A DNA stretch of 35,011 nucleotides, from assembly GCA_947459825.1 (NCBI GenBank), contig CANHFH010000015.1, positions 1-35,011 of the forward strand, read 5' to 3'. Numbering within the stretch: the first letter of the stretch is position 1; each line of letters opens with the position of its first letter. Shown here piece after piece: positions 21,144 to 35,011 of the stretch. This DNA is from Pseudomonadota bacterium (GTDB lineage Bacteria; Pseudomonadota; Gammaproteobacteria; Steroidobacterales; Steroidobacteraceae). Both the position numbers and the translations under genes were made by a program. Under the pieces are notes generated by a model, which saw only the letters and a list, made by a program, of their open reading frames with translations, did no database searches and had not been told where the DNA came from.

Positions 21144-21818
21144 ATGGCCATCATCACGCTGCGTAACGCTCTCGTGGCTGCGCTCGCCCTCGGCAGCGCC
21201 GGCTGCATGAGCGCGCGCGTCGAGGAGTCGCGCGAACTGCCGACGCAGATCGCGGCGGGCGAGGCCGTGGTGATCCTCGCCAAGCCCCAGATCGAGGGCG
21301 CCGCCGCCGCGGATGACTTCATGGACTGCGTCGGTCGCGGTCTGGCCTCCGGCGAGCGCCCGGTACCGGTGCGCGACAACGACGCCTTCGTCGACAGCCT
21401 GTTCCCGTGGTTCGAGCCCGCCACCGCGCCGGCGCGGCCCGAGGCGGTGACCGAGGTCCTCGCGCGTCCCGGGGTCAGCGAGCGTATCGCCTCCACCGGG
21501 GTGCGCTATCTCGTCTGGCTCGACGGCGCGACCCGCAAGACCGATGGCGGCGGCAGCCTGGCCTGCGGTGCGGCCCCGGGCGCCGCGGGTTGCGTGGGCT
21601 TCGGCTGGTGGGAGAAGGAATCCGATTTCGAGGCGGTGATCTGGGACCTCAAGAGCGCGAAGTCCGCCGGTTCCATCGGCACCAATGTCACCGGTACTTC
21701 GGCGATCGTCGGCGCGGTGGTGCCGTTGCCGTTCATCGCGCGGGTCGAGGGCACGGCCTGCAAGCGGCTCGCCGGTCAGCTGCAGTCCTTCTTCCAGGGC
21801 GGCGCTCCGGCGCCTTGA
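21144..21818 (+). CDS. Predicted lipoprotein A of the kinase/VWA operon
   Basis: The protein has 224 residues. A short signal peptide ends at Cys21 (ALGSAGC), an acceptable though not ideal lipobox. The mature part has no domain I recognise. It contains the conserved-looking stretches AVVILAKPQIEG, GVRYLVWLDGATRK, a Cys pair around a Gly/Ala stretch (ACGAAPGAAGCVGFGWWEKE) and DFEAVIWDLKSAKS. This alternation of beta-strands ending in a final helix (KRLAGQLQSFF) resembles small envelope lipoproteins with an alpha/beta sandwich. GGGAG about 7 nt before the ATG supports the start. It is the first gene of the 21144-34064 operon, so it is likely a periplasmic or outer-membrane component of the same complex. 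The function is unknown. Confidence 0.75.
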   Translation: MAIITLRNALVAALALGSAGCMSARVEESRELPTQIAAGEAVVILAKPQIEGAAAADDFMDCVGRGLASGERPVPVRDNDAFVDSLFPWFEPATAPARPEAVTEVLARPGVSERIASTGVRYLVWLDGATRKTDGGGSLACGAAPGAAGCVGFGWWEKESDFEAVIWDLKSAKSAGSIGTNVTGTSAIVGAVVPLPFIARVEGTACKRLAGQLQSFFQGGAPAP

Positions 21819-21838
21819 ATTCTTTGGAGACCGCAGTG

Positions 21839-22567
21839 ATGGGCATCGTTCGGCATTGGCGTGCGTTCGTGGCGGTGGCCGGGGTCGCTGTGCTGACCGG
21901 CTGCGCTGCGACCGGTGGTGGGACTTCGACGGGTGGCATGCCGGGCGGTCTGCCGGGCGGCGTGCCCGGTGGCCTGCCGGGTGCGATCCCCGGCGGGACC
22001 GGCGGTGCGCCATCGGGCGGGATGCCCGGCCTGCCGGACATGGGATCCTCGGGCAGCGGGTCCGACAGCCGGGGTGCCGAGGGACGCAGCGGCGGTGAGG
22101 GCGGTGCGAGCACCGCCGACGAGCGCCGCACGGTGCTGGACAAGCGTCTCGACGACACGCTGGGCGAGTTCGACAAGACCCTGGGCGAGGAGCAGGCGCG
22201 CACCGCGCGTTCGCGCGATGAGCGTGAGGCTTCGACGGCGCGCCGCACTTCCGACGGTTCGGCGGACGGCGGCGATGCCGCCGGTGAAGGTGGTGCAGCG
22301 GCCGGTTCGGGCGATGGCGCGCGCGAGGGCGACCTGCGCTCTGCGCGGGCCGGTGGTGCGTCGTCGTCCACCGAAGGCGGCTCGCAGCAGTCCGGCGGCG
22401 GTTCTGGCGGTGGCGGTGGCGACCGCGGCATCCCGTCGGGCGACGACGACGACATCGTCGCCCGTCGGCTGCGCCGTGCGGCGGAACAGGAGACCGATCC
22501 GGAGCTGCGCGAGAAGCTCTGGAAGGAGTACGCGGACTACAAGCGCAACGCGCAGGGGCGTGGTTGA
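21839..22567 (+). CDS. Predicted Gly/Ser-rich lipoprotein B of the operon
   Basis: The protein has 242 residues. The signal peptide ends in a textbook lipobox LTGC (Cys22). A low-complexity stretch follows, with MPGG/LPGG/VPGG/IPGG repeats at about 34-53. Next come a charged segment with two related DKRLDDTLGEFDKTLGEEQ elements, a long Gly/Ser/Ala-rich linker, and a compact C-terminal motif DIVARRLRRAAEQETDPELREKL. The last part looks like the only conserved folded element: the protein resembles a tether with a small helical interaction module at the end. The ATG at 21839 is preceded by GGAGA; GTG at 21836 is an alternative. It lies 20 bp after lipoprotein A, and its stop overlaps a possible TTG start of lipoprotein C. 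Confidence 0.75.
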   Translation: MGIVRHWRAFVAVAGVAVLTGCAATGGGTSTGGMPGGLPGGVPGGLPGAIPGGTGGAPSGGMPGLPDMGSSGSGSDSRGAEGRSGGEGGASTADERRTVLDKRLDDTLGEFDKTLGEEQARTARSRDEREASTARRTSDGSADGGDAAGEGGAAAGSGDGAREGDLRSARAGGASSSTEGGSQQSGGGSGGGGGDRGIPSGDDDDIVARRLRRAAEQETDPELREKLWKEYADYKRNAQGRG

Positions 22568-22569
22568 GC

Positions 22570-23844
22570 ATGATGACGATGAACACGGGGTACCGCGGTC
22601 GGCGGCTGTCGATGGGTCTGCTTGCGCTGGCGGCGTTGGCGCTCGGCGGATGCGTGGTACACGAGACCAAGCCGATCGCCAAGGTCGAGGCGCGACAGGC
22701 GAAGCAGCAGATCCCGGCCGCGGAGCTGCTCGATATCGGGATCCGCGAGTTCGATCCGAACATCCCCGCTGCGCTCGTCGACGACGAGGAGGCGCTCGAC
22801 AAGCGGCGCATCTACCCGGACATCCGCAAGGCCGAGTCCCGCCTGCTCGCGGTGCGCCTGCGCTCGACGCTCGAGTCCTCGGGGCAGTGGGGCGCGGTGC
22901 GCGTGGTGCCGCAGGGCATCGAACACCTCGACCTGATCGTCAGCGCGCGCATCGTCGAGTCGACCGGCGCGCGTCTCGAGCTGCGCGTCGACGCGGTCGA
23001 CGCGACCGGTCGCGCGTGGATCAAGGACCGCAGCTATGCGGGCGACGCCGATCTCGGTTCCTACAAGACCGATGCCGCGCTGCGCGCGCGCGACCCGTTC
23101 CAGAACGTGCACTCGCAGATCGCCAACGACCTCGTTGCCGCGCGCGACGCCTTGGCGGCCGCACAACGCCGCGAGATCCGGCAGGTCGCCGAGCTGCGGT
23201 TCGCGCAGGACCTCGATCCACGGCGCTTCCAGGGCTATCTGCAGCGCGACGCCGGCGGGCTGCTGCGGATCGCGCGGTTGCCGGCCGCCGACGACCCCGC
23301 GCTGGCGCGCATCGCCAAGATCCGCGAGCGCGACGCCGCGGTCATCGATACCGTGGACGGCTTCAGCGGCGACTTCTCCGAGCAGCTGTTCGAGCCCTAT
23401 GGTGGTTGGCGCCGCACCAGCCGCGACGCCATCGAGAAGGCGGAGCGCACGCGCAACCAGGCGCTGACGCGCACCGCGCTCGGTGCCGCCGCGGTCCTCG
23501 CGAGCATCTTCGTGCCGAGCAACTGCGCGGGCGGCGACTACAACTGCCAGCGCGTCGACAGCGCGCTGCGCACCACGGCGTCGATGGGCGGCGTGGCGGC
23601 GGTGCTCTCGGGGATCCAGAAGTACGCCGACGCCAAGGCCGCAGCCCAGGAAGTCAAAGAATTAGCGGACAGCTTCGGCAGCGAGGCGGCCGGCCAGACC
23701 GTCGAGGTCGAGGGGCGCACGCTCAAGCTGACGGGCACCGCCGAGGAGCAGTACCGCGAGTGGCGGCGGCTGCTGGCGGCGATCTACCAGGAGGAGAACG
23801 GCGTCCCGGCCGCGACCCCTGCGGGCACCGCGCCCGCGCCCTGA
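22570..23844 (+). CDS. Predicted lipoprotein C of the operon, 424 residues
   Basis: The N-terminal signal peptide ends in LALGGC (Cys28). The first part of the mature protein (about 40-190) alternates strands and helices, with LLAVRLRSTLESSGQWGAVRV, LDLIVSARIVESTGARLEL and DPFQNVHSQIANDLVAARD. This is a layout shared by lipoproteins whose N-terminal domain resembles the TolB/FlgT-type fold; the likeness is from memory and is weak. The second part has an FEPYGGWRRTSRDA motif, a hydrophobic helix (ALGAAAVLASIFVPS) with two Cys close by, and a charged C-terminus. A TTA leucine codon at 23662 is out of keeping with the GC-rich codon use around it. ATG at 22570 is preferred over TTG at 22564. The function is unknown. 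Confidence 0.75.
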   Translation: MMTMNTGYRGRRLSMGLLALAALALGGCVVHETKPIAKVEARQAKQQIPAAELLDIGIREFDPNIPAALVDDEEALDKRRIYPDIRKAESRLLAVRLRSTLESSGQWGAVRVVPQGIEHLDLIVSARIVESTGARLELRVDAVDATGRAWIKDRSYAGDADLGSYKTDAALRARDPFQNVHSQIANDLVAARDALAAAQRREIRQVAELRFAQDLDPRRFQGYLQRDAGGLLRIARLPAADDPALARIAKIRERDAAVIDTVDGFSGDFSEQLFEPYGGWRRTSRDAIEKAERTRNQALTRTALGAAAVLASIFVPSNCAGGDYNCQRVDSALRTTASMGGVAAVLSGIQKYADAKAAAQEVKELADSFGSEAAGQTVEVEGRTLKLTGTAEEQYREWRRLLAAIYQEENGVPAATPAGTAPAP

Positions 23845-23853
23845 GCGCCGCCC

Positions 23854-26193
23854 GTGGCGATGCCGGGAACACGGGTCTTCGACCGGTTCGAACTGCTCGC
23901 GCGCGTGGGTGGCGGCGGCGAGGCCGATGTGTGGCAGGCGAGTGACGGCGCCGATGTCATCGCGCTGAAGATCATCGATCTGACGGCGCGTCCCGAGCAG
24001 GAGATCGACCGCGCATGGACGGCGCTGCGCCGCCAGCACGACCTGCTCGCGGTCGTCGACCACCCCGGTGTGCTGCGGCCCGCCGAACCGCTGCGGGACG
24101 GCGCGCTGCTCGGGCTGCCCATGCCATTCTTCGAGGACGATGCGCGCAGTCTGCGCGGTGCGCCCGCTGCCCGCGTGTTGCCCGTGCTGCGCGCGGTCGC
24201 CGAGGCCGTGGCGGCCCTGCACGCCGCCGGCATCGTCCACCGCGACCTCAAGCCCGGCAACATCTTGCTCGACGCGGAGGGTCGCGCCCGGCTCGCCGAC
24301 TTCGGCAGCGCGGAACTCCTCGGTGAGGCCGCTGCGGGGGTGTCCTTCTCGCCCTACACCGCGAGCCCGGCGCAGCGTCGCGGCGCACCGGCCTCGGTCG
24401 AGGACGACCTGCACGGTTTCGGCGCGCTCGCCTACGAGTTGCTCGGCGGCTATCCGCCGCGTTTCCCGGTCGAGCCCGCTGCGGGCGCGGACCTGCCGCC
24501 CGTGCCGCCGCTGGTGCCGGCGCATCCGTTACCCGAGGACCTGCATCGGCTCGTGATGGCGCTCCTCGACGACGGCGCAGCGTCGCCGTCCGCGCCCGCG
24601 CCGCAGTCCGGGGCGGCGAGGCCGGCGGACATGACGGCGGTGGTGGGCGCGTTGCGCGGCATCCGTGCCGTCGCGCCAGCCGTGCCCGGGACGGTGCGGA
24701 TCCGTGCGCCCGCGGCCGGTGCGACGGGCGCCGCGGCGGCGGGCGCGGTGGACGGAACGGCGACCGACGGGCGCGTTCGAGGGCGTCTCGTGCGCGTCGC
24801 AGCCGCGCTCGCGCTGCTCGGGCTGCTGGCCGGTGTGTTTCTTTGGCTGCCGCGCCTGGCGCCGCCTGCGGCGACGGTGGCCGGCGCGGCGCCGACCGCG
24901 CGACCGTCGACCGCCGCAGAGGCGTCGCGCGATGCGGTGCGGTCCGCGACCGCGGACCGCCTGAAGCAGCAGCTCGCCGCGTCGGCTGCGGCCGCCGAGA
25001 GATACTCCGCGACCGTCATGGCTCTCGAGGCGCGCGGCGCGGGTGTCTGGGGCGGCGCCGACTTCGCTGCGGCACGGGCCCAGGGGCGTGCCGCCGCACA
25101 GGCGCTCGATGCGGAGGACCCGGCGCGTGCCATCGATCTTTTCGACGCGGCGACGGCATCGCTCGGCAAGGTCGCCGCGGTGGCACCCGCTGCCTTGGCG
25201 ACGCAGCTGCGCGCCGGCGGCGAGGCGCTCGAGTCCGGTCAACCGGAAGCGGCGCGACAGGCGTTCGAACTCGCGAAGCTCATCGCGCCCGAGGATGCGC
25301 GTGCTGTGGAGGGACTGCGCCGCGCCGAGGTCCTCGGCAGGATCCTGCCGCGGCTCGCCGAGGCGGAGGCGGCGGCGCTCGGCGAGCGTCCGCTGGAGGC
25401 CGTGACGCTCTACGAGCAGGTGCTGCGCGAGGACCCTGCGCATCCGGGCGCCCGCGCAGGGCTGGCGCGCGCCCGTGCGGCGCTCGGCTCGGATGCCTAC
25501 GCGCGCGCGATCGGCGATGCGCTCGCGGCCCTGCGCGAAGGCCGCGACAAGGACGCGCGTGCGGCGCTGGCCCGCGCCCGTTCGCTGCGTCCCGGCGGTG
25601 CGGAGATCGTGGCCGTCGAGGCGCAGTCGAGTGCGGTCGGTGCGCGGCGCGAACTCACGGCGACCCGCGAATCGCTGGCCGCGCTCGAGACCGCGGAGCG
25701 ATGGGGCGAGGCGCTCGCCGGTTACGAGCAGTGGCTGGCGCGCGACCCCACGCTCGAGTTCGCGCGCAGCGGCAGGTCACGCGCCGCCCCCCGCGCGGAG
25801 CTCGCGCGTCGGCTCGATGCGCTGCTCGGCGACCCGGCGCGGCTGGTCGCGCCGGAGGTCAGGCGTGAAGCCGACCAGTTGCTGGCGCGCGCCGATGCGG
25901 TGCGCGGCAGCGCGCCGGTGCTGCGTTCGCAGACGACGCGGCTGCGCGACACGGTGAAACTCTACGACCAGCCGGTGGCCACGGTGCTGCAGTCGGATGG
26001 CCTGACCCAGGTCACGCTGCAGCGCGTGGGGACGGTCGGCATGTTCACGCGTAAAGAGCTGCAGCTGAAGCCCGGCCGCTATGTCGCCATCGGCAGCCGG
26101 CCCGGCTACCGCGACGTGCGCCGCGAATTCACGCTGACGCCGGGCGGCGCTGCGGTGACCGTCGATGTGCGCTGCACAGAGACGGTGTCGTGA
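23854..26193 (+). CDS. Transmembrane Ser/Thr protein kinase with periplasmic repeats and a PEGA-like end
   Basis: The protein has 779 residues. The cytoplasmic kinase domain (about 10-240) has the glycine loop VGGGGEADV, Lys39 (ALKII), the catalytic loop HRDLKPGN with Asp131, and DFG with Asp149, so activity is expected. The APE motif is replaced by SPAQ. One membrane helix at about 312-333 follows a Pro/Ala-rich linker. The outer part contains helical, TPR-like repeats (for example RPLEAVTLYEQVLREDPAHPG and WGEALAGYEQWLARDP) and a C-terminal beta domain with LKPGRYVAIGSRPGYRDVRR, like PEGA domains. It is probably a sensor kinase that reads an envelope signal and phosphorylates cytoplasmic targets bound by the FHA proteins of the same operon. 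GTG at 23854 or ATG at 23860 is the start. No PP2C phosphatase is seen in the window. Confidence 0.9.
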   Translation: MAMPGTRVFDRFELLARVGGGGEADVWQASDGADVIALKIIDLTARPEQEIDRAWTALRRQHDLLAVVDHPGVLRPAEPLRDGALLGLPMPFFEDDARSLRGAPAARVLPVLRAVAEAVAALHAAGIVHRDLKPGNILLDAEGRARLADFGSAELLGEAAAGVSFSPYTASPAQRRGAPASVEDDLHGFGALAYELLGGYPPRFPVEPAAGADLPPVPPLVPAHPLPEDLHRLVMALLDDGAASPSAPAPQSGAARPADMTAVVGALRGIRAVAPAVPGTVRIRAPAAGATGAAAAGAVDGTATDGRVRGRLVRVAAALALLGLLAGVFLWLPRLAPPAATVAGAAPTARPSTAAEASRDAVRSATADRLKQQLAASAAAAERYSATVMALEARGAGVWGGADFAAARAQGRAAAQALDAEDPARAIDLFDAATASLGKVAAVAPAALATQLRAGGEALESGQPEAARQAFELAKLIAPEDARAVEGLRRAEVLGRILPRLAEAEAAALGERPLEAVTLYEQVLREDPAHPGARAGLARARAALGSDAYARAIGDALAALREGRDKDARAALARARSLRPGGAEIVAVEAQSSAVGARRELTATRESLAALETAERWGEALAGYEQWLARDPTLEFARSGRSRAAPRAELARRLDALLGDPARLVAPEVRREADQLLARADAVRGSAPVLRSQTTRLRDTVKLYDQPVATVLQSDGLTQVTLQRVGTVGMFTRKELQLKPGRYVAIGSRPGYRDVRREFTLTPGGAAVTVDVRCTETVS

Positions 26194-26203
26194 GGGTGCC
26201 GCC

Positions 26204-28639
26204 ATGAGCATGCCGTCGATGCGTGTGGTCGAGCCGGGCGGGACGCGCGATATCGCGCTGCCTTGCGCCGTCGGCGGGTCCCCGCAGGATCCGCTGCGCA
26301 TCCCGGATGCGGCGGACGCGACGACAGGGGTCTTCGAGATCCAGGACGGCGAGTTCGGCTTCCGCGCCACCGCAGCGGTGCCGGTGCGGCTCAACGGTCG
26401 CAGGCTGCCCGCCGACGGATTCCGCAGGCTCGCACCCGGCGACATGCTCGCGGTGGGCGGCACCCGGGTATCGGTGGAGATGGTCGGCGAGCGGCCGTCG
26501 CTCGTCGTGCGACACCTGCAGGGCAACGACACCGTGCCTCCGCTGCGCGCGCCGGCACCTGCGGACGACGAGGGCGGATCCGCGGATGCGATGGTCGCAG
26601 CGGCGGCGGTGTCGGGCGCGAGCCCTGACGATGGCGGCCGCGGATCGGCGGGTCGCGGCGGTCGTCGCAGCCTATGGCCCTGGATCGCGTTTCTGTCCGC
26701 CGCCGCCGTGGCGGCGCTGCTGTGGGCCGTGCTGCGTCCGCTGCAGCCGGTGACCGTGGTCACCTTCCCCGCGGAGGCGACCGTGCGCGGCTCGGGCATC
26801 AGTTGGCGCTCAGGTGCGTCGCTGTTCCTCATGCCGGGACCGCAGGTGGTGACGGTGCGGGCGCCGGGCCACCGCGACGCGACGCGGCGCCTGCAGGTGC
26901 GCGCCGATGAGCCGCAACGGCTCGAGGTACGGCTCGAGCCGCTGCCCGGGACGCTCGACATCGACACGGGAGGCGTCGCTGCCAAGGTGTTCATCGACGG
27001 CGCCGAGGTGGGCGGCGCGCCGGGCGCGATCGAGGTCGCCGCAGGCGAACGGACGCTGACCCTGCGCGCGCCGCGGCATCTCGATGCCGTGCAGCGCGTG
27101 ACGGTGGAGGGGCGAGGCGTACGCCAGGCGATCGGCATCGCGATGCGGCCGAGCTGGGGCCGTCTCGAGGCGAGCGCCACCACGCCGGGTGCGACGCTGT
27201 CGGTCGACGGCGCTGCTGCGATGCCGCTGCCCGCGGCGCTCGATCTGCCCGCCGGGCTGCGCCGGCTCGAGGTGGGCGCGCCGGGCGCGCGCGTGTGGCG
27301 CAGCGTCGCGCTCGTCGAACCCGGCAAGACCTTGCGCATCGGTCCGATCGAGCTCGGCGCGCCGGATGCGGTGGTCAGCATACGCTCGCAACCGGCGGGC
27401 GCCGAAGTCACGGTCGGGGGCGTGTTCCGCGGCCGCACGCCGCTCGAGGTGTCGCTCGCGCCCGGCGTCGACCACGACCTGGGATTCGCGCTGCAGGGCT
27501 ACGCAGCGGCGACGCGACGGCTGCCGGCCCGTGCGGGCGAGCGCTCCACGCTGGCGGTGACGCTGCAGCCGGTGCTGGTCCCGCTCACCGTGCAGGGCGA
27601 GCCGGTGGATGCGGAGGTCTGGATCGGCGGACAGCAGCGCGGTCGCGCGCCGCTCACGCTGCAGCTCCCCGCACGCCCGCACCGCGTCGAACTGCGGCGC
27701 GCCGGTTCGCAACCGCAGTCGCTCGACATCGACCTGTCGTCGGCGGTGGCGCGCACGGTCGACTATTCGCTGCTGCCCGAGGGCAAGCCCGCCGGCTGGA
27801 AGCCCGCGCCCGCGTCGCTCGTCACCGCTTCCGGCCGCGCGTTGCGGCTGCTGCCGGCTGGCACTTACACGATGGGCAGCGAGCGCCGGGAGCAGGGGCG
27901 TCGCGCCAATGAATTCACGCGTCGCGTGACGCTCGCCCGTCCCGTCTACATCGCGGTGCGCGAGGTCACCAACGGCGAGTTCCGCAGGTTCCGCGCGTCG
28001 CACGCCGCCGGGTTCGTGCAGCGGCGCACCGTCGACCTCGATCCGCAGGCGGCGTCCGGTGTGTCCTGGTCGGACGCGGTGGAGTACTGCAACTGGCTGT
28101 CGGCGCAGGAGGGGCTGCCGCCGGCCTACGAGAAGGCCGGCGACGGTTGGACGCTGCGCCAGCCCGTGACCACGGGATACCGGCTGCCGACGGAGGCCGA
28201 GTGGGAGTACGCGGCGCGCCAGGTGCCGCTCGCCGGACGGGCGCGGCGCTACGAGTGGGGCGACGAACTGCCGCCGCCCGCCGGTGCCGCCAACCTCGCG
28301 GGCAGCGAGGCGGCGGGCGTCGTGCAGACGCTGCTCGAGGGCTGGCAGGACGAGCACCCGTCCGTCGCGCCGCCCGGCAAGTACCCCGCGAACGGCCTCG
28401 GTCTCTACGACATGACGGGCAACGTCTCGGAGTGGGTGCACGACGCGTATGCTTCGTTCGACACGGCGGCGGGCGGCACCAATCCGACCGGGCCGGCGTC
28501 GGGCGCGCGCCGCGTGGTGAAGGGCGCGAACTGGCGCACGGCGGTCTTCTCGGAGCTGCGGCCGGCGTGGCGCGAGGGCGCGGATCCGTCCAGCGCATCC
28601 CAGGACATCGGTTTCCGTATCGCACGATACGCGGAGTGA
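26204..28639 (+). CDS. Membrane-spanning FHA-like / PEGA / SUMF1 protein
   Basis: The protein has 811 residues. The N-terminus (about 1-105) looks like a degenerate FHA domain (VRLNGRRL, then LAPGDMLAVGGTRV). A Gly/Asp-rich linker and one membrane helix (157-178) follow. The long outer part (about 182-540) contains several PEGA-type beta repeats, including VSIRSQPAGAEVTVGGVFRG and VDAEVWIGGQQRG. The C-terminus (about 545-811) is a formylglycine-generating-enzyme-like (SUMF1) domain with TYTMGS, YRLPTEAEWEYAAR, DMTGNVSEWVHD and IGFRIAR. The paired Cys of true FGE enzymes are absent, as in most SUMF1 relatives, so a structural or sensing role is likely. TagR of the type VI secretion phosphorylation pathway has this domain. 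GAGGGTG precedes the ATG; the gene lies 10 bp after the kinase. Confidence 0.88.
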   Translation: MSMPSMRVVEPGGTRDIALPCAVGGSPQDPLRIPDAADATTGVFEIQDGEFGFRATAAVPVRLNGRRLPADGFRRLAPGDMLAVGGTRVSVEMVGERPSLVVRHLQGNDTVPPLRAPAPADDEGGSADAMVAAAAVSGASPDDGGRGSAGRGGRRSLWPWIAFLSAAAVAALLWAVLRPLQPVTVVTFPAEATVRGSGISWRSGASLFLMPGPQVVTVRAPGHRDATRRLQVRADEPQRLEVRLEPLPGTLDIDTGGVAAKVFIDGAEVGGAPGAIEVAAGERTLTLRAPRHLDAVQRVTVEGRGVRQAIGIAMRPSWGRLEASATTPGATLSVDGAAAMPLPAALDLPAGLRRLEVGAPGARVWRSVALVEPGKTLRIGPIELGAPDAVVSIRSQPAGAEVTVGGVFRGRTPLEVSLAPGVDHDLGFALQGYAAATRRLPARAGERSTLAVTLQPVLVPLTVQGEPVDAEVWIGGQQRGRAPLTLQLPARPHRVELRRAGSQPQSLDIDLSSAVARTVDYSLLPEGKPAGWKPAPASLVTASGRALRLLPAGTYTMGSERREQGRRANEFTRRVTLARPVYIAVREVTNGEFRRFRASHAAGFVQRRTVDLDPQAASGVSWSDAVEYCNWLSAQEGLPPAYEKAGDGWTLRQPVTTGYRLPTEAEWEYAARQVPLAGRARRYEWGDELPPPAGAANLAGSEAAGVVQTLLEGWQDEHPSVAPPGKYPANGLGLYDMTGNVSEWVHDAYASFDTAAGGTNPTGPASGARRVVKGANWRTAVFSELRPAWREGADPSSASQDIGFRIARYAE

Positions 28640-28641
28640 GC

Positions 28642-29007
28642 ATGAAAGCGAGCGAGAGGGCCGCGCCGCGCGCGGCGAGGATGATCGCGTGGACCGCAGC
28701 GGCGGCGCTCGTCTGCTGGGGCGCGACGCTGTCCATGGTGCGCGCCGTCGCGCAGGAGACCGCGCCGCCGCGCACGGCACCGCCCGATGCGCCGTCCGAT
28801 GCACCGTCCGATGCGCCGCCGACCGATGCCACACCTTCGGATGCCGTGCCGACGGCACCGACCACGGCCGGCGCTCCGGTCGTGGAGGACGGCGATACCA
28901 ACGAGGAGGCCTCGAGCGACCGTGCCCGCGCACCGGTGACGCTCGACGAGCTGCCCGAGTTCCGCGATTCCGCCGACAACAACATCACCCTGCCGGTCGA
29001 CATATGA
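28642..29007 (+). CDS. Small exported Pro/Asp-rich protein of the operon
   Basis: The protein has 121 residues. A hydrophobic segment (about 14-37, ending AVAQE) reads as a signal peptide or membrane anchor. A disordered Pro/Asp/Ser/Thr region follows, with APSDAPSDAPPTDATPSDA made from 12-bp DNA repeats. It ends in a short non-repetitive element, LDELPEFRDSADNNITLPVDI (written in part: ELPEFRDSADNN). The last 20 residues look like a binding epitope for a partner. The ATG at 28642 follows the SUMF1 stop by 2 nt. Its own stop overlaps the channel gene start by 4 nt (ATGA), so it is made in step with the MotA/TolQ-like protein and may be an accessory subunit. It matches no family I know. Confidence 0.72.
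   Translation: MKASERAAPRAARMIAWTAAAALVCWGATLSMVRAVAQETAPPRTAPPDAPSDAPSDAPPTDATPSDAVPTAPTTAGAPVVEDGDTNEEASSDRARAPVTLDELPEFRDSADNNITLPVDI
28786..28821 (+). repeat. Three 12-bp tandem repeats in the small exported protein
   Basis: GATGCGCCGTCC, GATGCACCGTCC and GATGCGCCGCCG at 28786-28797, 28798-28809 and 28810-28821 encode DAPS-DAPS-DAPP. A fourth related unit follows after a 3-nt insertion. The linker probably grew by slippage and could vary in length between strains. Confidence 0.7.
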
Positions 29008-29804
29008 ACAGAAAGCTCCCCAATGAATTCATCTTCACCGTGGTGGCGTTGCTGCTGTCGGTGATCCTGGTGCACGCCGCATATGTGCTGCATGTGCGCC
29101 CCGTCGCCGAGGCGCAGATGCGCGCCGACCGCGAGGCCATGGCCAAGGACCCCGAGTATGTGCAGCAGCGCTCCATCTATGTGGTCATCAAGGACTACGA
29201 GCAGGAGGCCGAGATCATCCTGATGCTGTGGGCCCTGGCGATCCTCGGCTACAAGACGCTCGCCTACCGGCGCGAGGCCGAGGCGCTGCGCGCCGGCCTG
29301 CTGCGCCTGCCTGAGGGCGCGCGGATCCTGCCGGAGGACACCCGCGAGTACATGCGTCAGCTGGAGGAGCTGCCGGCCGACACGCGCGAACGGCTCGTGC
29401 CGCGCGCGCTGCTCGCGGCGCTCGCACGCTTCGGCGCGACGCGCAGCGTGCAGGACGCGTCGACGGTCGCGCACGGGGTCTGTCAGTCCGAGGCCGAGCG
29501 GCTCGATTCCGACCTCTCGATGCTGCGCTACATCGCCTGGGCGATCCCCGCCATCGGCTTCATCGGCACGGTGCGCGGCATCGGCGATGCGCTGTCGCAG
29601 GCGCACAAGGCCGTGACCGGTGACATCTCCGGCGTCACCGAGGGCCTCGGTGTCGCCTTCAATTCGACGCTGATCGCGTTGTTGTTGTCGATCCTGCTGA
29701 TGTTCCTGATGCAGCAGCTGCAGCAGGCGCAGGAACGGCTGGTGCTCGACGCCGAGACCTGGCTGGACCAGCGCGTGATCCGCAACCTGCAGGTCCTCGG
29801 ATGA
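29004..29804 (+). CDS. MotA/TolQ/ExbB-type proton channel family protein
   Basis: The protein has 266 residues with four predicted membrane segments (about 9-30, 70-88, 175-199, 212-238) and a cytoplasmic domain at about 90-170. The C-terminal pair carries the family signature, AIPAIGFIGTVRGI, followed after a short loop by GVTEGLGVAFNSTLIALLLS. The small residues lining the proton path (Thr189, Ser221/Thr222) are present. In MotAB, TolQR and ExbBD, five such subunits surround two B subunits and use proton flow to turn or move them. The likely B partners are the two VWA proteins encoded at 31225-33363. The four-helix topology is more MotA-like than ExbB-like. The start is fixed by ATGA overlap with the previous gene, and the stop overlaps the next ATG in the same way. 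Confidence 0.88.
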   Translation: MNRKLPNEFIFTVVALLLSVILVHAAYVLHVRPVAEAQMRADREAMAKDPEYVQQRSIYVVIKDYEQEAEIILMLWALAILGYKTLAYRREAEALRAGLLRLPEGARILPEDTREYMRQLEELPADTRERLVPRALLAALARFGATRSVQDASTVAHGVCQSEAERLDSDLSMLRYIAWAIPAIGFIGTVRGIGDALSQAHKAVTGDISGVTEGLGVAFNSTLIALLLSILLMFLMQQLQQAQERLVLDAETWLDQRVIRNLQVLG

Positions 29805-31225
29805 GCATCGTCGGCCTGCAGCTCGACGACGCGGCGTTCGCCGTGGCGCGCGATGGCGCGCCGCTCGGTGCCGTCACGCCGTCGATCGTGCATGCCGATC
29901 CTGCAGATGCCACCCGCTTCGGCACCCTCGCGGCGGATGCCGTGCGCCGCACGCCGCATCGTGTGTCCTACGGCCACTGGGCTGCGTTCGGCGCGGGCAC
30001 CGGCACCGCCGGCAAGCCCGGCGTGTCCGATGGCGCCGCGGCCCGAGCCGCCTTCACGGTCGCTTGCGCCGAACTGCGCCAGCGGGTCGCCCCACATGTC
30101 GCACCGGGTGATCGGCTGCGGATCGCCGTGCCGCCGGCCCTCGATACCGATGCGCTCGGTTGGGTGCTCGCCGCCTGCCGGGAGGCGGCGCTGCCGGTCG
30201 ACGGATTCCATGATGCCGCGGCGCTCGCGGTGGCCGCGCTCGGCCTCGAGGGTGAGGTCATCGTCCCCGCCGTCGGTCTGACTCATACCTCGGCCACGCG
30301 GGTCGTGGTCGGAGAGGGCGAGGCGCGGCGGCGTGCCGTCCGCATATCGCGTGATGCCGGTCTGCTCACGGTGCAGCAGCGTTGGCTCGAGATGATCGCC
30401 GAGGCGATGGTGCTGCGTTCCCGCTTCGATCCGCTGCATGAGGCCGCGAGCGAACAGCGGCTCTACGACCTGCTGCCGACGGCGGCGGCGCGGGCCGCGC
30501 GCGAGGGATCTGCGACCCTCGAACTGCCGGCAGGCGCTGCGAGCTGCGCGGTGACGCTGAGCCGGGACCAGTTCGCGGCCGCCGCGCGCCCGCTGACGCG
30601 CGCGCTCGCAGCGTCGATCGACGCGCTGCGGTCGGACGGCGCTCCGCCCACCTTGCTGCTCTCCGAGACGCTGCTCGAACTGCCGGGCGTCGTGGAGGCG
30701 TTGTCCGCGCTGCCGGGCGTGCGTCTCCATGCGATGGACGCCGATCTCGTCGCGCGTGCGGCATCGATGCTGCCCGTCGCGGCCGACGCCGCCGCCGAGG
30801 CGACGGCGGTGGAGGTGCCGTTGCGGCGTGGGATCGCCGTCGGCGCGATCCTCGGCGAAGCCAGGGTCGTCGAGATCGCGCCCGAGGCCGCTCGGACGGC
30901 GCCGACCCATGTGCTGTGGCGCGGTTCGGCCATCCCGCTCGTACCGGGGACCGTCCTCGAGGTCGGCCGCGCGCCCGCGGCGGACGGCATCCGGCTCGAC
31001 GAAGGGCTCGCCGGCGTGTCGCGGCTGCACTGCACGCTGCGTCACGGGCCGGAGGGCGTGCAGGTCATCGACCATGCCGCTTACGGCACCTGGCTCAACG
31101 GCCGTCGGATCGCCGGCCGGGCGCGGCTCGCAGCGGGTGATCGGCTGCGCATCGGTGACCCCGGTGTCGAACTCGCGCTGATCGCGGTGGGGTCGGGCGC
31201 TGCGACGGACGCCGGGACGGGCTGA
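29801..31225 (+). CDS. Hsp70/actin-like protein with a C-terminal FHA domain
   Basis: The protein has 474 residues. The N-terminal about 340 residues resemble the YegD/DnaK-like actin fold: TPSIVHADPADATRFG-type start, IAVPPALDTDALGWVLAACREAALPV, and MVLRSRFDPLHEAASEQRLYDLLP (in part: RFDPLHEAASEQRLYD). The nucleotide-binding motifs are poor: DxGTTNS reads GLQLDDAAFAV, and the second phosphate loop DxGGGT reads VGLTHTSATRV, so it is probably not a working ATPase. The C-terminus (about 385-465) is a complete FHA domain with GR at 387-388, GVSRLHC and AYGTWLNGRRI, which should bind phosphothreonine. It likely recruits phosphorylated partners of the operon kinase to the channel complex. ATGA overlap with the channel gene and TGATG with the next indicate tight coupling. 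Confidence 0.82.
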   Translation: MSIVGLQLDDAAFAVARDGAPLGAVTPSIVHADPADATRFGTLAADAVRRTPHRVSYGHWAAFGAGTGTAGKPGVSDGAAARAAFTVACAELRQRVAPHVAPGDRLRIAVPPALDTDALGWVLAACREAALPVDGFHDAAALAVAALGLEGEVIVPAVGLTHTSATRVVVGEGEARRRAVRISRDAGLLTVQQRWLEMIAEAMVLRSRFDPLHEAASEQRLYDLLPTAAARAAREGSATLELPAGAASCAVTLSRDQFAAAARPLTRALAASIDALRSDGAPPTLLLSETLLELPGVVEALSALPGVRLHAMDADLVARAASMLPVAADAAAEATAVEVPLRRGIAVGAILGEARVVEIAPEAARTAPTHVLWRGSAIPLVPGTVLEVGRAPAADGIRLDEGLAGVSRLHCTLRHGPEGVQVIDHAAYGTWLNGRRIAGRARLAAGDRLRIGDPGVELALIAVGSGAATDAGTG

Positions 31226-32316
31226 TGAAGCGCCGTCGCGTCGAGGTCTTCAGCATGTCCTTCCTGGACGTGATCTGCTGCGGCTTCGGTGCGGTCATCC
31301 TCTTCTACACGATCATCAGCGCGCAGAGCGGCATCGAGCGGACGCGCCGTGCCGAGGACCTCGCTGCGCAGGTGTCCAAGCTCGAGGAGGAGGTGGTGCG
31401 CGGCGCCAAGAACCTCGTGCTGCTGCGCAACGCCCTGCAGCGCACCGACAGCGAGACCGTGTCGGCGGCCTCGCGTGCGACGCGCCTGATCGAGGAGCTG
31501 CAGCAGCGCCGCGAGGAGGCGTCCATCTACGACGCCACCACGCTCGCCAAGCGCGAACGCATCGAGAAGCTCAAGGCCGATGTGCGCGCGCTCGAGGAGA
31601 GCACGCGTCGGCTCGAGGCGAGCGCCAAGGTGGAGACGCCGCGCGGCGAGATGACCGGCAGCGGTCGGTCGACGGCCAGCCGCCGCTATCTGACAGGGCT
31701 GTCGTTCCGCGGCCGGCGCATCCTCGTCCTGCTCGACCGCTCGTCGAGCATGCTCGACGAGGACCTGGTGCAGATCATCCGGTTGCGCAACTCCTCCGAT
31801 CAGGCGCGCCGCAACGCCGCGAAGTGGCAACGCAGCACCGACATCGCGCGTTGGCTGGTCGAGCAGATGCCGGCAGGTCGGCAGTTCCAGGTCTACGCGT
31901 TCAACGAGACCGCGGTACCGCTGATCGCGGGCACCGAGGGGCAATGGCTCGCCGTCGATGCGGCGCGCCGCCGCGAAGCGGTGGCCGCCATCGGGACGCT
32001 GCTGCCGCAGGGCGGCACCAGCCTGATCAACGCGCTGCGCGTGCGCACCGCGTTCAGGCAGCAGCCCGACCAGATCATCCTGCTGACCGACGGTCTGCCG
32101 ACGCAGGGCGCGACGCCGCCGGCGCTGCGCCGCTACATCGATGTCGGCGACCGTGCACGCCTGTTCGACGAGGCGGTGCGCGGCATCGATCCGAAGGTCC
32201 CGATCGATGTGGTGCTGCTGCCGATGAAGGGCGAGGTGCCCGGACCGCACCGGTTCTGGGCGCTCGCCCAGCGGACCAAGGGGTCGTTCGTCGTGCCGTC
32301 GCGGGACTGGCCCTGA
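31225..32316 (+). CDS. VWA protein 1 with a MotB/TolR-like N-terminal membrane segment
   Basis: The protein has 363 residues. A basic N-terminus (MKRRR) is followed by SFLDVICCGFGAVILFYTI, one membrane helix headed by Asp15. A coiled coil follows (about 35-140, rich in E/R/L), then a VWA domain with an intact metal site: DRSSS at 171-175, Thr265 in GGTS and Asp289 in LTDGLP. The positive-inside rule puts the VWA domain in the periplasm. One helix with Asp near its cytoplasmic end is the form of the MotB, TolR and ExbD subunits that carry the proton-binding Asp, but here the outer domain is VWA rather than OmpA-like. Its start shares one base with the previous stop. Its first 20 codons are almost identical in DNA to those of VWA protein 2. 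Confidence 0.88.
   Translation: MKRRRVEVFSMSFLDVICCGFGAVILFYTIISAQSGIERTRRAEDLAAQVSKLEEEVVRGAKNLVLLRNALQRTDSETVSAASRATRLIEELQQRREEASIYDATTLAKRERIEKLKADVRALEESTRRLEASAKVETPRGEMTGSGRSTASRRYLTGLSFRGRRILVLLDRSSSMLDEDLVQIIRLRNSSDQARRNAAKWQRSTDIARWLVEQMPAGRQFQVYAFNETAVPLIAGTEGQWLAVDAARRREAVAAIGTLLPQGGTSLINALRVRTAFRQQPDQIILLTDGLPTQGATPPALRRYIDVGDRARLFDEAVRGIDPKVPIDVVLLPMKGEVPGPHRFWALAQRTKGSFVVPSRDWP
31243..31289 (+). repeat. Copy 1 of a 47-nt near-identical repeat at the 5' end of the two VWA genes
   Basis: This stretch matches 32350-32396 at 46 of 47 positions, including every synonymous site over the final 34 nt. It encodes the end of the cytoplasmic leader and the first half of the membrane helix (SFLDVICCGFG). 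The rest of the two genes is far less alike. Confidence 0.9.
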
Positions 32317-32325
32317 GGTGCCGTT

Positions 32326-33363
32326 GTGAAGCGCCGTCGCCGCGAGACCGAGGTCTTCAGCCTGTCCTTCCTGGACGTGATCTGCTGCGGCTTCGGCGCG
32401 ATCATCCTGCTGCTCGTGCTCTCGGAGTTCGGGCAGCCGCTCGTCATCGAGCGCTCACGCCAGGATCTCGAGTCGCAGATCAAGCGTCTGCAGGCCGAGC
32501 TCTTCACCATCCGCGGCGACAGCGAGCGGCTGGAACGGGAGCTCAAGGGCAGGGTGGACCTGATGCAGCGCGAGCGGCTCAACCTCGCGCGTGCCGCCGG
32601 CGAGATGAGCAGCATCCGCGGGCAGTTCGACGCGTCGCGGCAGGAGGCTGCGGTCAGCAACATCGTCGAGAACGAGCTGCTGTCGGCGTACCAAGACCTC
32701 ATGCAGGAGAACGAGCGGCTGCAATCGGCGTCGCGCACCCGGCGGCGCGTCTCCACCGCTGCGGTGGGCGGCATCCCGGTGGACAGCGATTATGTGATCT
32801 TCCTCGTCGACACCTCGGGCAGCATGGATGTCCACCGCGAGACGCTGACGCGGGTGATGCGCGAGATCCTCGACATCTATCCGCGGCTGAAGGGACTGCA
32901 GATCGTCGACGACAACGGCCGCGAACTCTTCCGCGGGACGCGTGGCCGCTGGCTGGTCGACTCGCGCGGCCTGCGCGACGACATCGTCGCCCGGGTGCGC
33001 GACTGGCGCGCGTTCAGCGATTCGAGCCCCGAGGACGGCATCGAGGCGGCGATCGCCAATTATTGGTCGGCGGACCGCCGGATCAGCATCTATGTCCTCG
33101 GCGACGACTTCAACGGCCCGAGCATCCAAGGCGCGCTCGACGCCATCGACCGCGTGAACCGGCCGGACGGCAGCGGCCGCCGCCGCGTCCGCATCCACGG
33201 CATCGGTTTCCCGCGGGCGCCGTTTACAAACCCGCGGTTTTCGGCTTTGATGCGGGCGGTGAGCGAGCGCAACGACGGCACCTTCGTCGGGCTCACGCAG
33301 CTGGATGTCTGCGCGATCAGGATCAACGTGGGAGGCGTCGAGCGATGCGTCAGTGGCGACTGA
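32326..33363 (+). CDS. VWA protein 2 with a MotB/TolR-like N-terminal membrane segment
   Basis: The protein has 345 residues and is a paralogue of VWA protein 1 with the same plan. It has a basic leader (MKRRRRE), a membrane helix SFLDVICCGFGAIILLLVL with Asp17, a long coiled coil (about 35-145), and a VWA domain beginning with DTSGS at 162-166 and later VLGDDFNG. The Thr of the metal site is less clear (SSPEDGIEAA), so metal binding may be weaker than in protein 1. The outer domain ends with two Cys (DVCAIRI and ERCVS) not shared with the first copy. GTG at 32326 is used, with GAGGTG about 6 nt upstream. It overlaps the following lipoprotein gene by 19 nt. I propose that the two proteins form the B-subunit pair of the proton channel. 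Confidence 0.88.
   Translation: MKRRRRETEVFSLSFLDVICCGFGAIILLLVLSEFGQPLVIERSRQDLESQIKRLQAELFTIRGDSERLERELKGRVDLMQRERLNLARAAGEMSSIRGQFDASRQEAAVSNIVENELLSAYQDLMQENERLQSASRTRRRVSTAAVGGIPVDSDYVIFLVDTSGSMDVHRETLTRVMREILDIYPRLKGLQIVDDNGRELFRGTRGRWLVDSRGLRDDIVARVRDWRAFSDSSPEDGIEAAIANYWSADRRISIYVLGDDFNGPSIQGALDAIDRVNRPDGSGRRRVRIHGIGFPRAPFTNPRFSALMRAVSERNDGTFVGLTQLDVCAIRINVGGVERCVSGD
32350..32396 (+). repeat. Copy 2 of the 47-nt near-identical repeat in the VWA genes
   Basis: It matches 31243-31289 with one mismatch. The leader codons upstream of it are also alike (GAAGCGCCGTCGC in both), apart from a two-codon insertion here. Confidence 0.9.
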
Positions 33364-34064
33364 CCGCGGCCGCGGGGGCTGCAGCGCTGCTCGTCGGCTG
33401 CGGCACCGTGCAGATCGCGCCGAAACCGGTGTTCCCCAAGCCTCTGGTGGAGCAGCTGCCGGCCACGGTCGGGCTCGTGTTGTCGGCCGAGCAGCGCGAC
33501 CTCAAGCATGAGGAGACGCGCGGCGGCGTCGCCTGGGCGGTGCTGCTCGGCGCCGGCCAGCAGGCTTTCGCCCGTACGGTGATGGGCGCCACCTTCCGCG
33601 AGGTGCGCGAGTTCCCCGACAGCGCCGCAGCCGCGCGCGACCCGGCGGTGCAGGCGATCTTCGTGCCGCAGATCGAGCAGTATTCCTTCGCCACCGCCGA
33701 CGAGACCGGCGGCGAATATGTGGCGGTCACCATCCGCTACCGTATCGAGGTGTTCTCGCCGGACGGCGGCATCCACGACACGCTGACGCTGACCGGTTAC
33801 GGCACCAGCCGCATGGGCGGCATGGAGATGGGCGCCTCCGACGCGATGGACCGCGCGACGCGCGGAGCGATGCGCGACGCCGCCGCCAAGTTCCTCGCGC
33901 AGTTCGGTCGTCTGCCGATGGCGGCGCGGTTGGCGGCGGGCGAGCGGCTGTCGGCGGACGCCGCTGGCGGTCAGGGGACCGCGGAGGCGCTCACGATCGA
34001 GGCGTTGCCGGTGCGGGATTCGAGACGCCCCGCGTCGCCGCCGGTCACTCGCGCGACACCTTGA
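33345..34064 (+). CDS. Predicted lipoprotein D of the operon
   Basis: The protein has 239 residues. The signal peptide ends in a strong lipobox LVGC (Cys19). The mature part begins with a Pro-rich stretch (IAPKPVFPKPLVEQLP), followed by a likely alpha/beta domain: VGLVLSAEQRDLKHEE, AVLLGAGQQAFARTVMGATF, AIFVPQIEQYSFAT, YVAVTIRYRIEVFSPDG. Small outer-membrane lipoproteins that dock on envelope machines share this alternation of strands, but I cannot name a family. GGGAGG about 10 nt upstream supports the ATG, and the gene starts inside the end of VWA protein 2. It is the last gene of the operon and overlaps the convergent TonB-like gene by 20 nt. Confidence 0.78.
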   Translation: MRQWRLTAAAGAAALLVGCGTVQIAPKPVFPKPLVEQLPATVGLVLSAEQRDLKHEETRGGVAWAVLLGAGQQAFARTVMGATFREVREFPDSAAAARDPAVQAIFVPQIEQYSFATADETGGEYVAVTIRYRIEVFSPDGGIHDTLTLTGYGTSRMGGMEMGASDAMDRATRGAMRDAAAKFLAQFGRLPMAARLAAGERLSADAAGGQGTAEALTIEALPVRDSRRPASPPVTRATP

Positions 34065-35011
34065 CGAGCATCCGCTCGCGGAACACCACGCCGTCGGTCT
34101 CGACGGGGACCCCCGCCTCGATGCGTGGCGCGTAGCGCGCTTTGCGCGCCGCGAAGACCACCGAGCGGGCCACCGCATCAGGTTCGGCCCCGTCCGGCAG
34201 GCGCGCGTCCAGCACCCTGCCGTCGCGGCCCACGCGCAGCACCAGGTCCACATCGCGCGCCGTGTACTCCTCCGGGTCCGACGGCGCCAGCCGCGTCGCC
34301 GAACTGGGCGGCGCCCGGTAGATCAGCTGGCGTGGCCGCTCCAGGAAGTCCTTCTTGCCGGTGCCTGCCGCCACCAACGCCTTCCAAGCCTCCGCATAGG
34401 CCGCGGTCGCCTTGTTGCCGGCACCGGCGAGCAGATACCAGTCGCCGAGCTGGGCGAGGGTCTCACCGAACAGCGCTTGGTCGACGGGCGCGCTGGCGCG
34501 GATCAGCTCCACCGCATAGCGCAGCACGCGCTCGCCGTCCGGATTGAACCGACCGCCGACGGCTTGGGGAGCGAAAGGATCGCCGCCGCCCCCCGTCATC
34601 TCGGGCGCCATGGTGTCGGTGACCTCGGGGCCGTAGACCGCTTCGCCGAGCCAGGTGCGCGACAGTCCGCGCATCGCCGGCACGCCCGCGAGCGGCAGGG
34701 TCGGTCCGATCCGCTCGGCGATCTGCAGCGCGCGTGCGTGCAGGCCGCGCGCCGTCGTGAACCGCAGCTGGGATTCGCGCCAGCGCGCCAACCGGTCGAG
34801 GGGGTCGAGCAGGCGTGGGTCGTCCCGGCCATAAGCGCTTTCAGCGACCCGGAACGCGAACAGGTGCTCGCGCTCCGCCTCCGCCTCGGCACCGATCGCC
34901 ACATACCCTTCGATGAGCGGATCGACGATGTCGAGCTGCGCAGGGTTGTAGAGTCCGTCGAGGTTGCGCGAGAGGTCGACCGCTCGCTTGAGCACGACCA
35001 CGGCTTCGGTC
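34045..35011 (-). CDS. TPR-like protein with a TonB-type C-terminal domain, 5' end outside the window
   Basis: At least 321 codons are visible, and the frame is open at the right edge. GTG at 35001 is probably internal, since the frame continues upstream. The visible N-terminal part is helical with paired repeats of tetratricopeptide type (LDGLYNPAQLDIVDPLIEGY, LIRASAPVDQALFGETLAQLGDWYLLAG, AAYAEAWKAL; the second is cited in part, QALFGETLAQLGDWYLL). The last about 75 residues (DVDLVLRVGRDGRVLDARLP through KARYAPRIEAGVPVETDGV) match the TonB C-terminal fold, in which a phi-R-Y-x-P motif and an F/V-R-E strand follow. No signal peptide can be judged. It may link to the channel operon next door, but it lies on the other strand and may be unrelated. 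Confidence 0.75.
   Translation of the reverse strand, partial: TEAVVVLKRAVDLSRNLDGLYNPAQLDIVDPLIEGYVAIGAEAEAEREHLFAFRVAESAYGRDDPRLLDPLDRLARWRESQLRFTTARGLHARALQIAERIGPTLPLAGVPAMRGLSRTWLGEAVYGPEVTDTMAPEMTGGGGDPFAPQAVGGRFNPDGERVLRYAVELIRASAPVDQALFGETLAQLGDWYLLAGAGNKATAAYAEAWKALVAAGTGKKDFLERPRQLIYRAPPSSATRLAPSDPEEYTARDVDLVLRVGRDGRVLDARLPDGAEPDAVARSVVFAARKARYAPRIEAGVPVETDGVVFRERMLVKVSRE

Follow-up and report, generated by a model that had tools for sequence, protein, structure and literature searches.

A conserved gene neighbourhood around a TolQ-like channel and two different vWA proteins in Steroidobacteraceae and other bacteria, a putative trans-envelope motor

Related systems and the locus examined

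In diderm bacteria, few of the energised links that join the inner and outer membranes are understood. Among the closest described systems are the 5:2 motors TolQR, ExbBD and MotAB, which combine a channel having a pair of pore threonines (in TolQ, T145 and T178, with a role in the proton path) with an axle whose membrane helix carries an aspartate. The GldKLMN proteins of the type IX secretion system (T9SS) unite a SUMF1-fold protein with a proton motor, and the threonine phosphorylation pathway of the type VI secretion system (T6SS), with PpkA, Fha and TagR, contains kinase, FHA, SUMF1 and vWA domains. The same domain kinds are met in an eleven-gene block considered here, which occupies positions 21144–34064 of contig CANHFH010000015.1 from a Steroidobacteraceae genome (GCA_947459825.1; 2.6 Mb in 200 contigs). 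The contig was analysed over its whole length of 35,011 bases, referred to below as the window.

The loci studied fit a motor family described recently (Mol Biol Evol 2025, PMC12204202). According to the main text of that paper, membrane-tethered vWA proteins occur in heterologous pairs adjoining tolQ-like genes, with no tolR, and the paired motor was read, from sequence and AlphaFold 3 models, as a 5:2 assembly with a vWA axle and both helices in the pentamer; the helix Asp and a Thr ring in the channel are conserved. The family is reported there from Proteobacteria and Verrucomicrobia, its function being undescribed in that text, which nowhere uses the terms kinase, SUMF, formylglycine or PEGA. 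Our loci agree with it in having a vWA pair beside a tolQ-like gene, no tolR and the conserved Asp, this agreement being with the published description of the family, whose reference sequences are from Idiomarina. Relative to the same text, the distinctive features of our loci are a conserved order of nine genes, the tail of a small exported protein, the fold of one lipoprotein and a linkage between kinase, FHA protein and a T..P motif. In the open-access literature, apart from preprints, figures and supplements, neither the exported tail nor the dependence of the kinase on the FHA protein, the kinase-tracking T..P motif, the pseudo-Hsp70 fold or the TolB/PelC/FlgT-like lipoprotein was found for this gene set. 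A preliminary description of this DNA, made from the letters alone, held that no characterised system has exactly these genes; for the core, three of the eleven genes, the idea of the motor is already contained in PMC12204202, and the statement may stand for the remainder, the wider neighbourhood not having been found in that open-access literature. A conserved neighbourhood is in this way added to a motor family so far known by its core.

As in TolQR, ExbBD and MotAB, the channel belongs to the family with the pore Thr pair, and Asp is present in the membrane helix of the putative axle; unlike in those motors, the axle would carry vWA domains and originate from two different genes. Tol-Pal has in common with the locus a TolQ-like channel and, in fold only, the TolB-N-like domain of one lipoprotein, and differs in that no TolR, TolA, TolB or Pal exceeds its cut-off in the set and a separate TolQ is encoded in the genome.

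All 11 open reading frames (ORFs) of the block lie on the + strand and are spaced by no more than 20 bp or overlap (ATGA at 29004 and 29801, TGATG at 31225), just as the preliminary description had it. The domains named there were also recognised by Pfam, namely kinase (E 2.4e-19), SUMF1 (1.4e-47), four PEGA repeats, MotA_ExbB (9.2e-15), FHA (8.2e-10) and VWA, the last with E 8.2e-9 in the first vWA protein, vwa1, and weakly, with E 0.07, in the second, vwa2. Lipobox-type leaders are visible in all four proteins taken for lipoproteins. Between 20800 and 35000, no promoter-like site was found (0.4 expected) and terminator-like sites numbered three (3.2 expected), which is no excess over chance, so a single transcription unit obtains no support from such sites.

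Conserved gene order and the putative motor core

The linkage of these genes is real and goes beyond chance, as follows from both their co-occurrence and their conserved order. Three samples were used. The first comprised 60 genomes from the same genus, family or order as the source genome, which was itself included, and 40 stretches around vwa2 matches; the second came from a scan of named genomes with at least 573 confirmed relatives, the best 80 of which were kept (nearly all of them metagenome-assembled genomes (MAGs), with binning taken as deposited); the third consisted of 20 stretches from genomes of the class. After removal of near-identical stretches, with duplicates recognised by alignment, 131 loci remained, and the first set of loci numbers 121, of which 112 are unique. 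Residue counts, tail-letter counts and the shuffle test refer to an older list less 12 loci dropped as duplicates; eight of the 12 truly repeat a stretch, and the near-identical L152 and L172 were kept in that list.

At least four of the nine core genes were found in 105 of the 131 unique loci, colinear in 100 and on one strand in 104 of these 105. The kept order is lipo2 and lipo3 (lipoproteins), the kinase/TPR gene, the PEGA/SUMF1 gene, sm (the small exported protein), the channel, the Hsp70/FHA gene (hspFHA), vwa1 and vwa2. Exceptions are the moved lipo2 of L058 and L059, the two divergent halves of L148 and the position of the channel behind vwa2 in L162 and L173, and otherwise intact runs lack hspFHA (17), the channel (9), lipo3 (3) or sm (2, both being tail variants). 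In a sample of 323 genomes of the class, the vWA profile (E ≤ 1e-10) matched in 26 genomes and the channel profile in 34; strong channel matches (E ≤ 4.2e-76) occur in 26 genomes, precisely those with the vWA match, and the eight further ones are weak, with E no lower than 2.5e-30. The neighbourhood co-occurrence that the preliminary description had suggested as a check is thus present, and the gene link, envelope location and proton channel with two vWA proteins proposed there are supported by co-occurrence, order and conserved residues. No channel was detected at E ≤ 1e-5 in five genomes without vwa2. In genomes G006, G019, G027 and G033, and likewise in G247, the operon is devoid of the channel, which is present elsewhere in the genome.

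Closer to the source genome, vwa2 is held by 46 of the 60 genomes of genus, family and order and by 19 of 23 other examined genomes of the genus, and in 14 mapped stretches of the genus the gene order is unchanged over the part that each covers, with the channel missing in two. The best 80 relatives are mainly records of Gammaproteobacteria and Desulfobacterales/Deltaproteobacteria, with one or few of Acidobacteria, Vicinamibacteria, Myxococcales and Kiritimatiellia; the records of the nearest ones are labelled Steroidobacteraceae, Nevskiaceae or simply Gammaproteobacteria. Plasmid-borne copies of vwa2 were looked for and not found.

Some deviating loci deserve mention on their own. In L148, a Myxococcales record, a half with channel, FHA and vwa genes diverges from a half with SUMF1, kinase and lipoprotein genes, which hints at two modules. 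Genomes G057 (L057 and L058) and G044 (L059) possess the system twice, the second copy being diverged and devoid of the kinase domain and hspFHA. Genome G047 has vwa2 on another contig (L049), with no further core genes in that stretch, and the rest in L063, where about 4.6 kb lie between the SUMF1 and channel ORFs.

The channel gene (29004–29804) encodes a TolQ/ExbB/MotA-type protein which aligns with TolQ without gaps over residues 149–256, so that Thr189 corresponds to T145 and Thr222 to T178; both threonines are present in 100 of 100 channel rows. TolQ is also the closest solved protein (E 0.0078). In the source genome, there are six matches to the MotA/ExbB family in total, the described channel among them, and a separate TolQ above the curated cut-off is situated on contig C17. 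Both vwa1 (31225–32316) and vwa2 (32326–33363) begin with a helix of the [S]FLDxxxCGFGA type, predicted to cross the pore, the Asp of which is found in all 124 readable rows for vwa1 (Asp15) and in 127 of 128 for vwa2 (Asp17). This helix is followed by a coiled coil and a VWA or VWA-type domain with the residues of a metal ion-dependent adhesion site (MIDAS), near-invariant in both alignments; the site is complete in vwa1 (D171, S173, S175, T265, D289) and MIDAS-like in vwa2 (D162, S164, S166, S231, S233, D260). No useful match came from searching the PDB with profiles of the channel, vwa1, vwa2 and lipo3, the vWA pair retrieving weak coiled-coil look-alikes only (GCN4 and keratin chains). Judging by these sequence features, the core appears to be a TolQR-type motor with the vWA pair as its axle.

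Exported tail, possible phosphorylation arm and lipoproteins

Directly behind the SUMF1 gene is located the ORF of sm (28642–29007), a small, apparently exported protein, which has a hydrophobic leader or transmembrane helix (TM, residues 15–33), a Pro/Ala-rich linker of variable length and, at the extreme C-terminus, a conserved tail, here LPEFRDSADNNITLPVDI (28951–29004). This protein is the best-conserved new part of the set, and only a passing mention was given to it in the preliminary description. No significant Pfam match was obtained for it, and in its shortest members (L149, L058) it is reduced to approximately the leader and the tail. The consensus of the tail is A-D-x-x-[VI]-x-F-P-x-[DN]-I-end, and for searching, the first 121 loci supplied the pattern [FWYL]P.[DN]I-end. 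In these loci it matches 96 of 20,220 six-frame ORFs, one per locus; 95 of them are at the sm position, and the remaining one, in a cut locus, is just upstream of hspFHA. Every unique locus with a SUMF1 ORF has the tail (86/86). Among 86 tails of the older list, position −2 is Asp in 81 and Asn in five and position −10 is Asp in 78; the pattern itself dictates Pro at −4 and Ile at −1.

The pattern was also applied to 20 stretches of 19 genomes not seen before, with 17 matches in 3957 ORFs, all at the sm position. Since L172 repeats the contig of L141 and L169 contains the moved channel only, these stretches represent 18 independent operons, 16 with the exact tail and two with variants (L166 and L168, ending in MPSDI and IPSDM), which were detected only with a relaxed second look. 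We considered whether the tail merely results from the sm gene overlapping the start of the channel gene, and rejected this, because loci with a gap between the two genes, or with another gene following, retain the tail; in L162 and L173, with the channel relocated behind vwa2, the tail gene is still behind SUMF1. The tail may dock as a peptide to a MIDAS or into the SUMF1 cleft.

The kinase/TPR protein (23854–26193) contains a Ser/Thr kinase domain (residues 13–202), a TM (312–330) and a presumably exported part with TPR and a C-terminus that we label PEGA-like from our own reading of conservation, having obtained no Pfam match for it. Its catalytic residues are mostly kept in the alignment (His129 in 42/42, Asp131 in 38/42 and Asp149 in 39/41 rows). 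The signalling genes were counted in 83 loci with lipo3, the kinase/TPR gene, SUMF1 and vwa1: 53 have both the kinase domain and hspFHA, 19 have hspFHA alone, 11 have neither and none has the kinase alone. The kinase domain is therefore missing in 30 of 83 loci in which the rest of the operon is present, and in 11 of these 30 the FHA protein is missing too; absence was judged by our own profile (E ≤ 1e-5) in MAG sequences, where frameshifts are possible at single loci. In the first set, proteins lacking the kinase domain are shorter (356–579 residues versus 779 here) and still match the family profile. Kinase and FHA protein are thus accessory and do not belong to the core, and the threonine phosphorylation signalling proposed in the preliminary description is not at the heart of the system.

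In the PEGA/SUMF1 membrane protein (26204–28639; four PEGA repeats, TM 159–177), a T..P or T.PP motif precedes the membrane helix, in the cytoplasmic stretch; here it is GNDTVPP with Thr110 (codon 26531–26533), a proposed phospho-acceptor for FHA. On the older list, shuffling predicts 17.3 loci with the motif among the 51 that have the kinase, and 45 have it; for the 42 others, the prediction is 12.2 and the observed number 14. Restriction to complete kinase genes gives 46 of 52 loci with the kinase and 8 of 30 without it (Fisher p 1.8e-8, with kinship ignored and one short SUMF1 ORF omitted). A universal T..P phospho-site was rejected, since the motif tracks the kinase only. The threonine may be phosphorylated and then bound by the FHA domain. 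An FHA-like N-terminus, attributed earlier to the SUMF1 protein, found no match in Pfam. Formylglycine-generating enzymes require an active-site cysteine pair, and this function was rejected for the SUMF1 domain, which is without such a pair; C21 and C629 are the only cysteines in the entire protein.

The cytoplasmic adaptor hspFHA (29801–31225) was read as Hsp70-like from sequence alone, and its model (predicted local distance difference test, pLDDT, 91.8) bears this out: residues 1–332 superpose on the nucleotide-binding domain of mortalin (Z 30.4, 3.2 Å over 328 residues). Hsp70 proteins have glycine-rich phosphate-binding motifs, and the phosphate-1 and -2 stretches are degenerate in the inspected rows of the adaptor (15 of 55), from which it follows that this part is likely a pseudo-ATPase scaffold. 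The FHA domain (388–452) can be compared with the core rule GR..S..H...N: the consensus of 55 rows holds GVSRxHC and NG, and Arg is missing in some rows.

Two lipoproteins belong to the conserved order. The AlphaFold2 model of lipo3 (22564–23844; 71/112 unique loci; pLDDT 90.3) consists of a domain at about residues 48–203, the nearest folds of which are FlgT (Z 9.4, 136 residues), PelC (8.4), TolB (8.3) and CsgG (7.8), and a long helical hairpin (245–376) with structural matches to many unrelated coiled coils. The Gly/Pro-rich lipo2 (21839–22567; 64/112) has the C-terminal motif DDDxVAR..REAA.E.DP.LR..LW.EY..YK at 22445–22543, with no match in Pfam or NCBIfam.

Proposed machine and competing explanations

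In our opinion, the gene set rather probably encodes a proton-driven 5:2 trans-envelope machine with conserved envelope partners and optional phospho-control. The parts evident from sequence are a TolQ-like channel co-occurring with two different vWA proteins, each with a one-Asp helix of the MotB/TolR type, an exported sm with a near-invariant tail, a PEGA/SUMF1 membrane protein, a TPR membrane protein and two lipoproteins. Five channel subunits may surround one vwa1 helix and one vwa2 helix, and protons passing Asp15/Asp17 and the ring of Thr189/Thr222 would turn or pump the vWA axle. The coiled coils could then transmit the force to the periplasmic vWA domains, which may grip a partner via their MIDAS metal sites; among candidate ligands we favour the sm tail with its nearly invariant penultimate Asp, and the tail could act as a latch or coupling box close to the inner membrane. 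The domain fold common to TolB, PelC and FlgT suggests that lipo3 is the outer-membrane end. In lineages with the kinase, this enzyme may phosphorylate the T..P motif of the SUMF1 protein, whereupon the FHA domain of the pseudo-Hsp70 would bind and the motor would be gated from the cytoplasm. Any task ascribed to such a machine in the cell would be an inferred one. As a tentative and more far-reaching proposal, the set may constitute a self-contained class beside Tol, Ton and T9SS, with a TolQ-like pentamer, a vWA1/vWA2 heterodimer whose metal sites capture an exported peptide tail, an outer-membrane lipoprotein ring and, in some lineages, gating by kinase, phospho-Thr and FHA.

A number of observations weigh against the proposed machine. 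The channel scores 28.5 bits against a tolQ cut-off of 221, and a search of the PDB with its profile gave no chain at E ≤ 0.01. The Pfam match of vwa2 to VWA is weak. The structural models are of single chains. Foldseek placed TolB at the top for lipo3 with no match at E ≤ 0.001, Z does not exceed 9.4, and the fold is common to unrelated machines. Binding of the tail to a MIDAS is a guess, the SUMF1 cleft being an equally good candidate. The T..P motif is found in eight kinase-less loci and missing in six kinase loci, its association with the kinase ignores kinship, and in 19 loci the FHA protein occurs where the kinase is absent. In Peristeroidobacter soli (L130), vwa1 and vwa2 are present without other core genes within a stretch of 21 kb.

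Other explanations can be set beside the 5:2 machine. It is somewhat doubtful that the locus is a side branch of Tol-Pal or Ton, where the vWA pair would energise outer-membrane stabilisation or import, the TPR/TonB_C-like protein would be the transducer and lipo3 the equivalent of TolB. TolQ as the nearest solved protein to the channel, the resemblance of the lipo3 N-domain to TolB, a weak TonB_C match in the adjoining gene and an OmpA/Gly-zipper gene after vwa2 in some loci are in its favour; however, a TolQ above the curated cut-off is encoded separately in the genome, TolR, TolA and Pal have no match in the gene set, and the TonB_C-like gene is present in 46 of 112 unique loci, as a lower bound. 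A machine of surface motility, adhesion or export, with the SUMF1 protein resembling GldK and the vWA pair resembling CglB, is unlikely. In NCBIfam, the SUMF1 part does score highest with GldK, at 94.8 bits, but this is far below the cut-off of 350, and the channel, unlike in GldKLMN, is of the MotA_ExbB type; GldL, GldM, secretin and adhesin had no match among the scanned genes, and among the matches listed the recurrent flanking genes vary by lineage. The involvement of vWA proteins in gliding, mentioned in the main text of PMC12204202, agrees with such a function.

We regard it as quite improbable that the genes form a sensory or regulatory cluster akin to the threonine phosphorylation pathway of T6SS, in spite of the identical domain kinds and the absence of any kinase domain without the FHA protein (0/53): regulation of T6SS was rejected on the rarity of the VipB sheath gene, which, in a scan of 42 genomes, was detected in two of 34 carriers tested and not in the source genome, 32 carriers thus being without it, and 30 of 83 loci dispense with the kinase domain and retain the remainder. 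Phage defence of the Zorya type (ZorA/ZorB with ZorC/D or ZorE) is scarcely credible and was rejected as well. When eight proteins were compared with PADLOC, the channel weakly matched ZorA (E 2.1e-5), and the other matches were only to models matched by the kinase; presence of vwa2 in 19 of 23 other genus genomes and the kept order in 14 stretches (two without the channel) do not resemble the pattern of an island.

With regard to significance, the system described is widespread in mostly uncultured lineages and has a compact, conserved list of parts. It offers testable ideas, such as the tail peptide as a ligand, the vWA pair as an axle and a single phospho-threonine as a switch.

The block is bounded by two accessory lipoproteins, lipo1 (21144–21818; no Pfam match) and lipo4 (33345–34064), homologues of which occur in at least 27 and at least 49 of the 112 unique loci, many of these being cut by contig or fetch ends; elsewhere, lipo1 is often beside lipo4. 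Convergent with lipo4, on the − strand, is a gene at 34045–35001 for a protein with TPR_12 (E 1.3e-4) and TonB_C (E 0.011) matches, both below curated cut-offs. The contig ends 10 bp past this ORF, and its true start may be beyond the contig. This gene was omitted from the set in the preliminary description and recurs in at least 46 of 112 unique loci. Flanking genes in general were tried as a clue to function and set aside, since the recurrent ones, taken from six-frame ORFs with many spurious among the matches listed, vary by lineage. A protein with OmpA and Gly-zipper parts, encoded mostly directly after vwa2, forms a cluster of 16 loci, and two of its members were checked with Pfam (L045:14728-15525 and L134:11043-11858).

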